Part shown: positions 4,108 through 21,553 of the stretch, piece after piece
Layout: each line of letters opens with the position of its first letter
How positions within the stretch are numbered: position 1 is the stretch's first letter
Program-made: the position numbers and the translations under genes
Assembly (NCBI GenBank): GCA_016204605.1
Contig: JACQKK010000121.1
Span: 1-44,306, forward strand
Direction: 5' to 3'
Source of the DNA: Candidatus Lambdaproteobacteria bacterium
Lineage (GTDB): Bacteria > SAR324 > JACQKK01
DNA length: 44,306 nt
Notes under the pieces: generated by a model
Databases searched by the model: none
What the model was told of the DNA's origin: nothing
What the model saw: the letters and a program-made list of their open reading frames with translations, nothing else

Positions 4108-4632
4108 TCACGGCTGGAGCAGGCCGGGCGGGGGGTCGATCACGATGCGCTTGCGCGCCTGGTCCACCTCCCGGATCACCTCGCCCACCATCGGCACCAG
4201 CACCGCTCCGTCCTGCGAGACGATGCGCAGCATGTCGTACGCGCCCGTCTCCACCACTTCTGCGACCTCGCCCACGGGCACGCCCGCGAGCGTTTCCACC
4301 GCACAGCCGATCAGCTCGTCGACGAAGTACTGGTCCGCCTCCAGCGGCGCCAGCCGATCCCGTTCGACCAGCAGTTCCGCGCCGACCAGCCGCTCCGCCG
4401 CATCACGGTCCGGCACCCCCTCGAGCGCCACGATCCACAGGCCGTTGCCGTCCCGGATGCGGCTGACCTGGTGGGCCTCCAGCCCATGACGCGAATCCAC
4501 GTACAGCTCGGTCAGGCTCGCGAGGAAGCCCGGCGCATCGCTGAGCGACGCCACCCGCAACTCGCCCTTGAGGCCGTGGGCCCGCACGACCTTGCCCACG
4601 CACACCAGCCGCTCGCGGTCGATCAACGCCAT
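4108..4632 (-). CDS. rimM: Ribosome maturation factor RimM
   Basis: RimM helps mature the 3' (head) domain of 16S rRNA and binds ribosomal protein S19. The 174-residue product has the N-terminal RimM barrel motif VGKVVRAHGLKGELRV (residues about 12-27), followed by the PRC-barrel-like C-terminal half with YFVDELIGCAVETLAGVPVGEVAEVVETGAYDMLRI and the ending VPMVGEVIREVD...IVIDPPPGLL. The length is typical. It lies between rpsP and trmD in the conserved operon, with 48-bp gaps on both sides. Confidence 0.95.
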   Translation of the reverse strand: MALIDRERLVCVGKVVRAHGLKGELRVASLSDAPGFLASLTELYVDSRHGLEAHQVSRIRDGNGLWIVALEGVPDRDAAERLVGAELLVERDRLAPLEADQYFVDELIGCAVETLAGVPVGEVAEVVETGAYDMLRIVSQDGAVLVPMVGEVIREVDQARKRIVIDPPPGLLQP

Positions 4633-4680
4633 GGGCCCGTCATAGCCATGGGCAAATGCGCCGCCGCCGTGCCGGCGCGC

Positions 4681-5019
4681 CTAAGCCTGCCCGCCCGCTG
4701 CCGCCGCAGGAGTCTCCCCGCCCGCTGCCGCCGCAGGAGTCTCCCCGCCCGCTGCCGCCGCGGGCGTGGTGCCCGCCACCTCGATGCCGTGCAGGATCAG
4801 GAGCTTGCGCACGCGATCGCTGGGCAGCGCGCCCGCCGCGAGCCAGTACCGGGCCCGCTCGGTATCCACCGTGGACTTGTTCTCCTTCAGCAGCGGGTCG
4901 TAGCTGCCGATCCGCTCCACGAACCGCCCGTCGCGCGGCGCGGTGAGCGCAGAGACCACGATGCGGAAGAAGGGGCGCTTCTTGGTGCCACCCCGTGCCA
5001 ATCGAATCCGAGTCGCCAA
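4681..5019 (-). CDS. rpsP: 30S ribosomal protein S16 with a repeat tail
   Basis: S16 is needed for 30S assembly. The core (residues 1-80) has the family start xATRIRLARGGTKKRPFFRIVV and the RIGSYDPL segment. The proper start appears to be the TTG at 5017-5019: it gives the usual N-terminus and is preceded by GAGGAG seven bases upstream, whereas the next in-frame ATG adds eight unusual residues. After about residue 85 a low-complexity tail of three AAAAGGETP-like units is encoded by a 27-bp tandem repeat; S16 often has a variable tail, but a perfect repeat is less usual. It is the first gene of the rpsP-rimM-trmD-rplS cluster, 61 bp downstream of ffh. Confidence 0.95.
   Translation of the reverse strand: MATRIRLARGGTKKRPFFRIVVSALTAPRDGRFVERIGSYDPLLKENKSTVDTERARYWLAAGALPSDRVRKLLILHGIEVAGTTPAAAAGGETPAAAAGGETPAAAAGGQA
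4689..4761. repeat. 27-bp in-frame tandem repeat in the rpsP tail
   Basis: The 27-base unit is seen at 4689-4715 (one mismatch), 4716-4742 and partially at 4743-4761. Being nine codons long, it adds or removes whole AAAAGGETP units without changing frame, so its copy number can vary among strains without breaking S16. Confidence 0.88.
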
Positions 5020-5080
5020 CCGGTTTCTCCTCTGGTCGAACACCCGCGCTGCGCTGCCTGAGCCGCCGCCCCGAGCGGAG

Positions 5081-6439
5081 TCAGTTCAGGACGCCGCCGC
5101 GGGGGCGCGCCTCCCCGCCCTGCATCATCTGCATGAGCTGCTCGGCGCCGCCCGTGGTGGTGATCCGCTTCATCATCTTGCGCATCTGGGCAAACTGCTT
5201 GAGCAGCCGGTGCACGTCGGCCGGCTTGGTGCCGCTGCCCCTGGCGATGCGCTTCTGCCGCGCGGCGTTGACGATGTGGAAGTTCTCCCGCTCGCGCGGT
5301 GTCATCGAGCAGATGATGGCCTCGACGCGCACCAGCTCGCGCTCGTCCATCCTGGTGTTCTTGAGCGCGGCGCCCATGCCGGGGATCATCTCCATCAGGT
5401 CCTTCATGGGCCCCAGCTTGCGCAGCGCCCGGATCTGATCGAGGAAGTCCGCCAGCGTGAACTCGTTGCGGCTCAGCTTGCGCTGGAGCTCGAGCGCCTG
5501 GGACTGGTCATAGGTCTGCTGGGCCTTCTCGATCAGCGTGATCAGGTCGCCCATCCCCAGGATGCGCGACGCCACCCGCTCGGGGTGGAAGCGTTCCAGG
5601 TTGTCGAGCTTCTCCCCCACCGCCATGAACTTGATCGGCAGCCGCGTGACGGCGCGGAGGGCGAGCGCGGCGCCGCCGCGCGCATCGCCGTCCATCTTGG
5701 TGAGGATGTGGCCGGTCAGCCCGAGCCGGCGGTGGAACGCCTCGGCCGTGTTCACGGCATCCTGGCCGCTCATGCCATCGGCGATGAACAGCATCTCGCG
5801 CGGGTGGACGGCGGCCTTGACCCGCTCCAGCTCGGCCATCATCTCCTCGTCGATCGCGAGGCGTCCCGCCGTATCGAGCAGCACCACGTCGGCCCCGGCG
5901 GCGCGGGCCGCGTCGAGCGCGTCCCGCGCGATGCGCACCGGCTCCATCTCCGGGGTCGCGGGGAAGCACGGCACGTCCAGCGCCCGCGCGAGCGTGGCGA
6001 GCTGATCGATGGCCGCCGGCCGGTAGATATCGGCCGGCACCAGGTAGGGCCGCTTGCCCTCGCCCTGGAGGTACTTGGCCAGCTTGCCCGCGGTCGAGGT
6101 CTTCCCGGAGCCCTGCAAGCCGACCAGCATCACCACCGCCGGCGGCAGCCCCGCCAGCCGCAGCGCCTCGTGCTCGCTGCCCATCAGCCGGGTCAGCTCG
6201 TCGCTCACCAGCTTGATGAAGTGCTGGCCGGGCGTGAGCCCGCCCGGCACCGGCTCGCCCAGCACGCGGCCCTTCACCGTCTCCAGGAACTCGCGCGCGA
6301 CGCGGACGTTGACGTCCGCCTCGAGCAGCGCCGTCCGCACGTCCTGCAGCGCGGAGTCGATATTGGCCGCGCTCAGGCGGCCGCTGCCCTGCACGCGCCG
6401 CAGGGCGGCGGTCATCTTCTCGGTCAGGGCTTCGAACAT
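5081..6439 (-). CDS. ffh: Signal recognition particle protein Ffh
   Basis: Ffh is the SRP54-type GTPase that, with SRP RNA, delivers ribosomes making membrane proteins to FtsY. The 452-residue product has the N domain, the G domain with G1 GLQGSGKTS (107-115), DTAGR (189-193) and TKMDGDARGG (from 247), and the methionine-rich M domain with MGDLITLIEKAQ, MKDLMEMIPGMG and a terminal MMKRI...LMQMMQGG. All family landmarks are present. A well-formed minus-strand promoter (6519-6547) lies 80 bp upstream. It heads the ribosomal block ending in yraN; its RNA partner is at 21463-21553 in this window. Confidence 0.97.
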   Translation of the reverse strand: MFEALTEKMTAALRRVQGSGRLSAANIDSALQDVRTALLEADVNVRVAREFLETVKGRVLGEPVPGGLTPGQHFIKLVSDELTRLMGSEHEALRLAGLPPAVVMLVGLQGSGKTSTAGKLAKYLQGEGKRPYLVPADIYRPAAIDQLATLARALDVPCFPATPEMEPVRIARDALDAARAAGADVVLLDTAGRLAIDEEMMAELERVKAAVHPREMLFIADGMSGQDAVNTAEAFHRRLGLTGHILTKMDGDARGGAALALRAVTRLPIKFMAVGEKLDNLERFHPERVASRILGMGDLITLIEKAQQTYDQSQALELQRKLSRNEFTLADFLDQIRALRKLGPMKDLMEMIPGMGAALKNTRMDERELVRVEAIICSMTPRERENFHIVNAARQKRIARGSGTKPADVHRLLKQFAQMRKMMKRITTTGGAEQLMQMMQGGEARPRGGVLN

Positions 6440-6518
6440 GGCTGTGCCTGAAACAGGGCCCAAACAGGGCCCAAAACATAGCTTGCCCTGCAACGCTGCG
6501 GACCACTCCGAACAGCAA

Positions 6519-6547
6519 AAAATAGGGCACGCCCCGTCGGTTGTCAA
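6519..6547 (-). promoter_or_regulatory. Sigma-70-type promoter of ffh
   Basis: Read on the minus strand, TTGACA (6542-6547, a perfect -35 consensus) is followed after exactly 17 bases by TATTTT (6519-6524). It points toward ffh, about 80 bp away. Its -35 box directly touches the -35 box of the divergent efp promoter. Confidence 0.72.
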
Positions 6548-6576
6548 TTGATTTTTCGGTGGGAACTCCCGATAAT
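6548..6576 (+). promoter_or_regulatory. Sigma-70-type promoter of efp
   Basis: TTGATT (6548-6553) is followed after exactly 17 bases by GATAAT (6571-6576), pointing toward efp. The local sequence is markedly A+T-richer than its surroundings, as expected for a promoter. It abuts the divergent ffh promoter with no base between the two -35 hexamers. Confidence 0.7.
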
Positions 6577-6732
6577 ACGCGCGTTTTACAGGGGCGGTCG
6601 CCGGGAGATCGGCACGGGAAGGCGGGCGAGCGCCCGCACCGGACCGCAAGCCGGGGGTACCCGCAGCGGGGTCGGAACGCTTCCCACACCATCGGCGGGG
6701 CATGACGCCCCCGCACCATTCGAGGACCTCCG

Positions 6733-7296
6733 GTGTACGACACATCGCAAATCCGCAAGGGCTTGAAGATCGAGATCGATGGCGAGCCGTACAACGTCGT
6801 CGATTTCCAGTTCGTCAAGCCCGGCAAAGGCAACGCCTTCACCCGCACCAAGATCAAGAATCTGATGACGGGAGCCGTCCTCGAGAAGACCTACCGCACG
6901 GGCGAAAAGCTCCAGGAAGCCGAGCTCGACGAGCGCCAGATGCAGTACCTCTACCACGACGACGGCGGCTACCACTTCATGGATCAGCACTCCTACGAGC
7001 AGATGGCGATCCAGCCCGAAGTGATCGGCGACGACAAGGACTTCCTGTTGGAAAACCTGGTGGTGCCGGTGCTGCTGTTCAAGGGCCGGCCGGTGAGCCT
7101 CACCCTGCCCAACTTCGTCAACCTCGAGGTGGTGGAAACGGAGCCCGGGCTGAGGGGCGATACCGTCTCGGGCGCCCGCAAGGCCGCGAAGATGAGCACC
7201 GGCGCCGTGATCCAGGTGCCGCTGTTCATCGAGCGCGGCGACAAGCTGCGCATCGATACCCGCACCCGCGACTACGTGGAGCGGGTGAAGGGCTGA
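6733..7296 (+). CDS. efp: Translation elongation factor P
   Basis: EF-P relieves ribosome stalling at polyproline stretches. The 187-residue product has the KOW-like N-domain with the loop FVKPGKGNAF, where K32 corresponds to the lysine that EpmA beta-lysylates in E. coli, then two OB-fold domains (LENLVVPVLLFKGRPVSLTLPNFVNLEVVET and GAVIQVPLFIERGDKLRIDTRTRDYVERV). It starts with GTG at 6733, preceded by a GAGGA ribosome-binding site. The lysine at the loop tip, rather than arginine (EarP type), agrees with the adjacent epmA 21 bp downstream, so the two form an operon. Confidence 0.96.
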   Translation: MYDTSQIRKGLKIEIDGEPYNVVDFQFVKPGKGNAFTRTKIKNLMTGAVLEKTYRTGEKLQEAELDERQMQYLYHDDGGYHFMDQHSYEQMAIQPEVIGDDKDFLLENLVVPVLLFKGRPVSLTLPNFVNLEVVETEPGLRGDTVSGARKAAKMSTGAVIQVPLFIERGDKLRIDTRTRDYVERVKG

Positions 7297-7317
7297 GCGG
7301 CCCCCGCCCGCCTTTCC

Positions 7318-8589
7318 ATGACGACCCTGGCGCCCGGCACCTGGCAGATCGCCCGCGTGGTGGACCTGCCGGGGCCGGCCGCCCCCCGCCGCATCGCCCT
7401 CGCCGTCGCCGACCGCCTGATCCTCGCCGAAGCTCCGGCCGGGTTCCTCGCCGGGCTCGCGCCGGGCGACCTGGTGCGGGTACGGATCGAGCCGCCGGCG
7501 CGGCTGCTGGCCCTCGAACGCATCGGCGGCCCGGCGGCCGGCGGCTGGCGCGAGACGGGCGATGCCCTGCGCTGGCGCCGGCCGGGCGCCGCCCGATCGC
7601 GGATGGCCTTCCTCGGCTGGCGCCAGCAGGTGCTGCACACGATCCGCGCCCACTTCGACGGCCAGGGCTTCCTCGAAGTCGAGACCCCCGTGCTGGTGCG
7701 GGCGCCCAGCCCGGAGCCCCAGTTCGCCCCCGTGGCGGCCGGCGGGGGCTACCTCATCACCTCGCCCGAGTTCCAGCTCAAGCGCCTGCTGGTCGGCGGC
7801 TTCGAGCGCATCTACCGGCTGGGACCCGTCTTCCGCGGGGGCGAGATCGGTCGGCTGCACAACCCCGAGTTCACCCTGCTGGAGTGGTACCGGGCCGGTG
7901 CGGGCAGCGATGTCCTGGCCGCCGATCTGGAAGCGCTGCTGGCACGGCTGGCGCCGCTGGCGCTCGAGATCGCCCGCAGCGGCGCCGGTGCACCCTGGTG
8001 CCAGCCTCTCGCACGGCGAGCCGCCCTGCTGGCATCGGGCCCCTTCCCCCGCCGGCCGATCGGCGCCCTGATCCGCGAGCACACGGGCGTCGATCTGCGG
8101 GGCGTCACCACGGCGGAAGCGCTGCGGGAGCGGGCGCTCGCGGTGGGGTTCACCGGCGCCGCGGGGCTCCCCGCCGACTTCGAACGGGCGTTCTTCGCCC
8201 TGTGGGACCCGGTCGAAACCCGACTGGGCGAGGCCCCCGTGCTGGTGACCGAATGGCCCGCGCCGCTGGCCAGCCTGGCGCGCCTGCTCCCCGGCGACCC
8301 TACCCTGGCCGAGCGGATGGAGCTCTACGCGGGCGGCATGGAGCTGGCCAACGGCTTCGCGGAGCTGACCGACCCCGCCGAGCAGCGCCGGCGCTTCGAG
8401 GCGGAACTCGCCGCCCGGCGCGCGGCCGGGCTGCCGCCCCTGCCCCTGGACGAGGCCTTCCTGGCCGCGCTGGAGGAGGGAATGCCCCCCGCCGCCGGCA
8501 TGGCCCTGGGCGTCGAGCGACTGGTGATGCTCGTCACCGGCGCCGCGGAGCTGCGCGACGTGCTCCCGTTCGCCTGGGACGAGCGCTAG
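7318..8589 (+). CDS. epmA: EF-P--(R)-beta-lysine ligase EpmA with N-terminal extension
   Basis: EpmA (also GenX/PoxA/YjeA) is a class II lysyl-tRNA-synthetase paralogue that attaches beta-lysine to EF-P. The catalytic part begins near residue 95 and carries FLEVETPVLVRAPSPEPQF, the class II motif 2 region IYRLGPVFRGGEIGRLHNPEFTLLEWY, GMELANGFAELTD, and motif 3 GMALGVERLVML. The product is 423 residues, against about 325 for E. coli EpmA. The extra 80 or so N-terminal residues have an alternating hydrophobic, beta-rich pattern (WQIARVVDL...RRIALAVADRLILAE...GDLVRVRIE) that looks like a small OB-type barrel. The partner aminomutase EpmB is not in the window. Confidence 0.92.
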   Translation: MTTLAPGTWQIARVVDLPGPAAPRRIALAVADRLILAEAPAGFLAGLAPGDLVRVRIEPPARLLALERIGGPAAGGWRETGDALRWRRPGAARSRMAFLGWRQQVLHTIRAHFDGQGFLEVETPVLVRAPSPEPQFAPVAAGGGYLITSPEFQLKRLLVGGFERIYRLGPVFRGGEIGRLHNPEFTLLEWYRAGAGSDVLAADLEALLARLAPLALEIARSGAGAPWCQPLARRAALLASGPFPRRPIGALIREHTGVDLRGVTTAEALRERALAVGFTGAAGLPADFERAFFALWDPVETRLGEAPVLVTEWPAPLASLARLLPGDPTLAERMELYAGGMELANGFAELTDPAEQRRRFEAELAARRAAGLPPLPLDEAFLAALEEGMPPAAGMALGVERLVMLVTGAAELRDVLPFAWDER

Positions 8590-21324: not shown

Positions 21325-21462
21325 GGGCAGGCCGGAGGCGGGTTGGCGGTGGTGCGCCCCCCGAGCGGCGCATGCAGGGGCCCCAACGGCCGGGCCAACT
21401 GCCCAGCGGCCCGCAGGGCGGGGCCCGGGACGAGCCCTTCCTGACGCGGAATCAGCGGGGAA

Positions 21463-21553
21463 GCCGGGTCTCCACGGCACATCCGCGGGTTCGGGTGCTG
21501 CTTCCTTTCGGACCTGACACGTTGGGAACCCTTGGATTGCGTAGAAACCCGGC
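21463..21553 (-). ncRNA. ffs: Signal recognition particle RNA, small bacterial type
   Basis: Read on the minus strand, 21495-21520 is GUGUCAGGUCCGAAAGGAAGCAGCAC, the nearly invariant SRP RNA domain IV with the symmetric and asymmetric loops that bind Ffh and a GAAA (GNRA) tetraloop. The flanks pair: GCCGGGU at the 5' end with ACCCGGC at the 3' end closes a rod of about 91 nucleotides, the small 4.5S type without an Alu domain. It lies 138 bp upstream of dnaX and is transcribed in the same direction, an association seen in many bacteria. Ends are estimated from the outermost helix. Confidence 0.93.

Follow-up and report, generated by a model that had tools for sequence, protein, structure and literature searches.

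Two touching back-to-back promoters predicted between divergent ffh and efp genes in a Candidatus Lambdaproteobacteria genome are probably an incidental arrangement

The window (the whole stretch of 44,306 nucleotides that was analysed) carries ffh, the gene encoding the signal recognition particle (SRP) protein, and efp, the gene encoding elongation factor P (EF-P), in divergent orientation, the latter being followed by a gene encoding a protein similar to the EF-P lysine ligase (Table 1). The 293 bp between ffh on the minus strand and efp on the plus strand (6440-6732) hold two putative promoters. The minus strand reads TTGACA-17-TATTTT (6547..6519) and the plus strand TTGATT-17-GATAAT (6548..6576), and the -35 hexamers of both strands touch at 6547/6548 with a gap of 0 bases. 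These are two full pairs of -35 and -10 boxes on opposite strands, facing away from each other and with spacers within 16-18 bp, as is characteristic of a divergent back-to-back sigma-70 pair, and each has a gene on its own strand behind it (ffh from 6439, efp from 6733). The boxes, the 17-bp spacings, the zero gap and the position between divergent ffh and efp had all been given by the initial annotation, and direct reading of the sequence confirmed them to the base. The minus site matches the consensus at 10 of 12 positions and the plus site at 9 of 12, the plus site being the weaker of the two (-35 box 4/6, -10 box 5/6). Transcription would start near 6512 on the minus strand and near 6583 on the plus strand, about 71 bp apart. 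The reading of these sites as promoters is probably right, strongly so on the ffh side and moderately on the efp side.

Table 1. Genes and predicted promoter features at the ffh/efp locus (positions are those of the window)
Feature	Position	Strand	Evidence or remark
ffh, signal recognition particle protein, 452 aa, ATG at 6439	5081..6439	-	TIGR00959, 559.1 bits (cut-off 473.2)
Predicted ffh leader, about 73 nt, predicted start near 6512	6440..6512	-	Inferred from the -10 box
ffh -10 box, TATTTT	6519..6524	-	Direct reading and consensus scan; TANNNT at spacer 17/18 in 7/7 family genomes with a full ffh
ffh -35 box, TTGACA (TGTCAA on the plus strand)	6542..6547	-	Direct reading and consensus scan; kept in relatives
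Putative efp -35 box, TTGATT, abutting the ffh -35 box	6548..6553	+	Direct reading and consensus scan
Putative efp -10 box, GATAAT	6571..6576	+	Direct reading and consensus scan
Predicted efp leader, about 150 nt, strongly folded	6583..6732	+	Start near 6583 inferred
efp, elongation factor P, 187 aa, GTG start at 6733	6733..7296	+	TIGR00038, 254 bits (cut-off 185.8)
epmA/genX-like EF-P lysine ligase gene, downstream of efp	7318..8589	+	TIGR00462, 285.5 bits, just below the cut-off (286.9)

Other features were found in the same window. The gene encoding the bacterial small SRP RNA (RF00169, 54.9 bits) lies at 21460-21553 on the minus strand, which places the RNA and protein parts of SRP about 15 kb apart. 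Ribosomal protein S16 (TIGR00002) is encoded at 4681-5043, also on the minus strand, and its C-terminal tail is made of repeated PAAAAGGET-like units. Moreover, the predicted ffh leader contains a perfect tandem repeat of AAACAGGGCCC, in two 11-bp copies (6451-6472).

The two sites stand out from what would be expected by chance. A consensus scan of 4500-8500 returned exactly these two, against an average of 0.1 in shuffled sequences (n=50), and six sites with at least 9/12 matches were found in the whole 44-kb window. When 6440-6732 was submitted to 20,000 dinucleotide shuffles, a minus site of at least 10/12 occurred in 0.18% of them and a plus site of at least 9/12 in 2.0%; a divergent pair of equal strength with a gap of -2 to 5 never occurred, nor did one in 20,000 shuffles of the AT-richer 6500-6600. 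With the ffh box held fixed and 6548-6732 shuffled, 0.9% of the sequences had a plus site (9/12) at some position and 0.06% had one exactly at 6548; the values were 0.7% and 0.1% when only the AT-rich 6548-6600 was shuffled. The genome shows a preference for promoter spacing of 17 or 18: TTGACA-N10..26-TANNNT has 72 matches (17 for the reversed control pattern), 41 of them with one of these two spacers according to a tally compiled by hand, where about 8.5 would be expected from an even distribution. At 40 other strict TTGACA-17/18-TANNNT sites in this genome, no opposing site of at least 9/12 was found within 200 bp upstream; two of these sites offered only about 160 bp for the scan, and some may lie inside genes and not be promoters.

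The family to which this genome belongs is represented by ten genomes, three of which yielded no full ffh. TTGAC(A/T)-17/18-TANNNT is found upstream of ffh in all seven of the others, this genome included. The distance from the -10 box to the ATG is 79 bases here and 39-196 in the six relatives (39-42 in four of them, 148 and 196 in the other two). In two other families TTGACA lies at most 120 bp from ffh in 37 of 38 upstream regions (29/29 in the family of the same order, 8/9 in that of the same class), the sole exception being G042, whose ffh match begins at residue 2 and whose start is uncertain. Forty upstream regions had been taken in other families, from which G142 and G086, outside the class, were excluded for these counts; G016 and G045 do not figure among them, their ffh being near a contig end. 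A -10 box at normal spacing is recognisable in just 12 of the 38 regions, TANNNT at a spacer of 16-18 being present in 8/9 of the class-level family and in 0/29 of the order-level family (4/29 with the looser NANNNT). The ffh -35 box is thus shared by more relatives than the full promoter is, as far as the scan recognises the latter. In G007 the ffh promoter has nearly the same sequence as in the window (CCAATTGACA...GGGGC...CCCTAATTT), yet efp is not the neighbour, which indicates that the ffh promoter is independent of efp. Taken as a prediction from comparative sequence, the ffh promoter is well supported as an old element belonging to ffh, with a TTGACA-type box that is kept whatever gene adjoins upstream.

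The gene order itself is rare. Among 145 genomes efp was found in 132 and ffh (E<=1e-80) in 123, nine of these 123 being without efp. Only 3 of the 114 genomes with both genes have them in divergent order, namely this genome, G001 and G004, all of one family; this is a lower bound, since draft contigs can hide adjacency, which was assessed visually from the contig numbers and coordinates. Within the family the order occurs in three of the six genomes with both genes. The distance between the -35 boxes is 0 bp in the window, 86 bp in G001, where the efp-side box is a TTGACA with a poor -10, and 205 bp in G004, where the efp-side site reads TTGGCG-17-TATGAT. The boxes thus abut in one of three divergent genomes, the other two being of other genera, and this is not the pattern of a conserved co-regulated pair. 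Moreover, no opposing site better than 7/12 was found within 10 bp of the ffh promoter in six other family genomes. In the best 80 of 516 named loci with a relative of EF-P, no ffh of more than 40% identity was found beside efp in the available flank, which includes at least 1000 bases upstream of efp in 72 of the 80. In one distant genome (G140:C5:172694-174939) ffh and efp are neighbours in the same orientation, with about 420 bp between them. The abutting arrangement appears confined to one genome among those compared, this being the only one of its genus, and there is no sign of a conserved control device. The initial annotation had proposed that its reading would fall if the boxes lacked conservation in relatives: such a lack was found for the abutting pair and for the efp box, whereas the ffh box is conserved.

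On the efp side a promoter is plausible, and it is seen in this genome only, the genus having no second genome in the comparison. Within 300 bp upstream of efp, the plus site alone reaches at least 4/6 and 3/6 matches at spacers of 15-19. The distance from the efp-side box to the start codon is 94-117 bp in G001, G004, G005 and G007 and 185 in the window, and the best efp-side sites of G002 and G003 reach 8/12. The putative leader is rich in G+C (73% in 6584-6732) and, together with 13 bases of the gene, folds to -77.8 kcal/mol, the region before the start codon being mostly paired. The folding has a z-score of -1.91, and 6 of 200 shuffles fold as well. A structured RNA in this leader was considered and rejected on the basis of these values and of the RNA-family search, which gave no match at the gathering score and four weak matches, far below it, in 6300-6900. 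The genome also encodes two EpmB-like proteins (G000:C37:46781-47743, 248 bits, and G000:C14:10597-11457, 225 bits). Neither reaches the TIGR03821 cut-off of 369 despite the EpmA-like gene behind efp, and both could be lysine 2,3-aminomutases serving another role.

The TTGA of the plus -35 box is one half of the palindrome TCAATTGA, the other half of which begins the ffh -35 box; in other words, TTGATT opens with the reverse complement of the TCAA that precedes TTGACA. Three of seven family genomes (G000, which is the genome of the window, G004 and G008) have this TCAA flank in front of the ffh -35 box, their ffh promoters containing TCAATTGAC(A/T), and G007, which has CCAATTGACA, carries CCAA instead. 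AATTGAC was found in none of the 38 upstream regions of the two other families. The possibility of TCAATTGA being a genome-wide element was discarded, TCAATTGA-N18..20-TANNNT having one match here and between 0 and 4 per genome in the rest of the family (nine genomes). The recurring flank may nevertheless have a role that is unexplained by incidental abutment.

It is quite probable, in our judgement, that two ordinary housekeeping promoters of the sigma-70 type, back to back between ffh and efp-epmA, came to touch in this lineage and that their abutment is incidental, not selected. The ffh promoter would be ancestral and would stay with ffh regardless of the upstream neighbour, and in this lineage efp would have gained a promoter whose -35 box takes in the bases beside the ffh -35 box. 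The opposite strand of the TCAA flank already reads TTGA, and GATAAT 17 bp further on would complete the efp site; we infer such an origin of the efp promoter from the flank of the ffh box. Each promoter would recruit the housekeeping holoenzyme independently. Given the footprint sizes of polymerase, two enzymes bound with starts about 71 bp apart would likely come into contact at their upstream edges, as the initial annotation reasonably supposed, or exclude one another there, with interference mainly when both promoters are strongly used.

A different reading would be that the abutment is a device selected for coupling, in which a polymerase at one promoter blocks the other and so balances SRP against EF-P. 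It could draw on the zero gap, on the two spacers of 17 and on a pair far above local shuffles, as well as on the competition documented at bidirectional promoters under strong activation of one direction (PMC12825309, as available in part). However, neither of the two relatives that share this gene order has the abutment, the order is found in just 3 of the 114 genomes with both genes, and competition at basal level was absent at five promoters in the same partly available source. In addition, from the literature on EF-P, SRP, promoters and ffh, the accessible part of PMC7844537 names EF-P only in its reference list. Selected coupling seems very unlikely to us, and still a little less credence is given to an efp promoter grown from the symmetric sequence that flanks the conserved ffh -35 box into a zero-gap pair in which mutually exclusive polymerase binding sets the SRP:EF-P ratio. 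The suggestion of the initial annotation that transcription of SRP and EF-P is coordinated, or meaningfully competes, is unsupported, since only one of the genomes compared shows the arrangement and the other two genomes with divergent order among the 114 have well separated -35 boxes.

It could also be that only the ffh promoter is real, the plus site being a by-product of the TCAATTGA palindrome and of local AT-richness, and that efp is read from a promoter missed by the scans. This would be in keeping with a plus site seen in this genome only, whose TTGA is already given by the flank of the ffh box, with the position of the efp-side box 94-117 bp, not 185, upstream in four of the six family relatives with an efp locus, and with the length of the implied G+C-rich leader of 150 nt. 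Nevertheless a GATAAT exactly 17 bp away does not follow from the palindrome, just 0.06-0.1% of shuffles produce a site at 6548, and the 300 bp upstream of efp offer no alternative at the thresholds given above. We consider a spurious efp site unlikely; as the -10 box is unrecognisable in most regions of the order-level family, its probability was slightly raised and our confidence in an incidental contact of two promoters slightly lowered. The chances seem slimmest for TCAATTGA being bound by a regulator that spans the two -35 boxes and governs both genes, which we regard as extremely improbable. The 8-bp palindrome does occur at three family ffh promoters (G000, G004 and G008), and each of these genomes has only 1-2 palindrome matches at promoter spacing from TANNNT, but two abutting TTGA halves generate such a palindrome by themselves, and AATTGAC is missing from all 38 regions of the other two families.

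Read as two ordinary promoters that came to touch, the locus would offer a clean example of a conserved housekeeping promoter, that of ffh, staying put while the neighbouring gene changes. It also suggests that a second promoter may arise from the symmetric flank of an existing one, and that a geometry which is exact and striking in a single genome may show no sign of selection when relatives are compared.

Lambda PR/PRM are back-to-back divergent sigma-70 promoters, and the present arrangement resembles them in having two complete promoters that face away from each other, with upstream edges near enough for polymerase interference. It differs in that the -35 boxes abut exactly, with no known shared operator or regulator, and in that the promoters are predicted. 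Bidirectional promoters on Salmonella plasmids are reportedly treated in one study (PMC10268837) and overlapping divergent promoters in uxuR in another (PMC10016265). About 25% of E. coli genes are in divergent pairs, according to the available part of a study on divergent promoters and supercoiling (PMC4469952). The bidirectional promoters of E. coli described by Warman, Grainger et al. (PMC12825309), whose report is likewise used here in part, are distinguished by their authors from separate divergent promoters. There, polymerases exclude each other, basal transcription was too low for competition at all five promoters tested, and competition arose when one direction was strongly activated; by analogy, interference at the ffh/efp locus is possible at high expression. 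The two systems are alike in that mutual exclusion of two polymerases would be expected and in that symmetry of the promoter DNA permits starts both ways. They differ in that the promoters of that report share a -10 box and have starts most often 18, and also 10 or 23, bp apart, whereas here the -10 boxes are separate (6519-6524 and 6571-6576), one to each promoter, and about 71 bp separate the predicted starts, which places the ffh/efp pair outside the bidirectional promoters with a shared -10 and with the divergent back-to-back ones.
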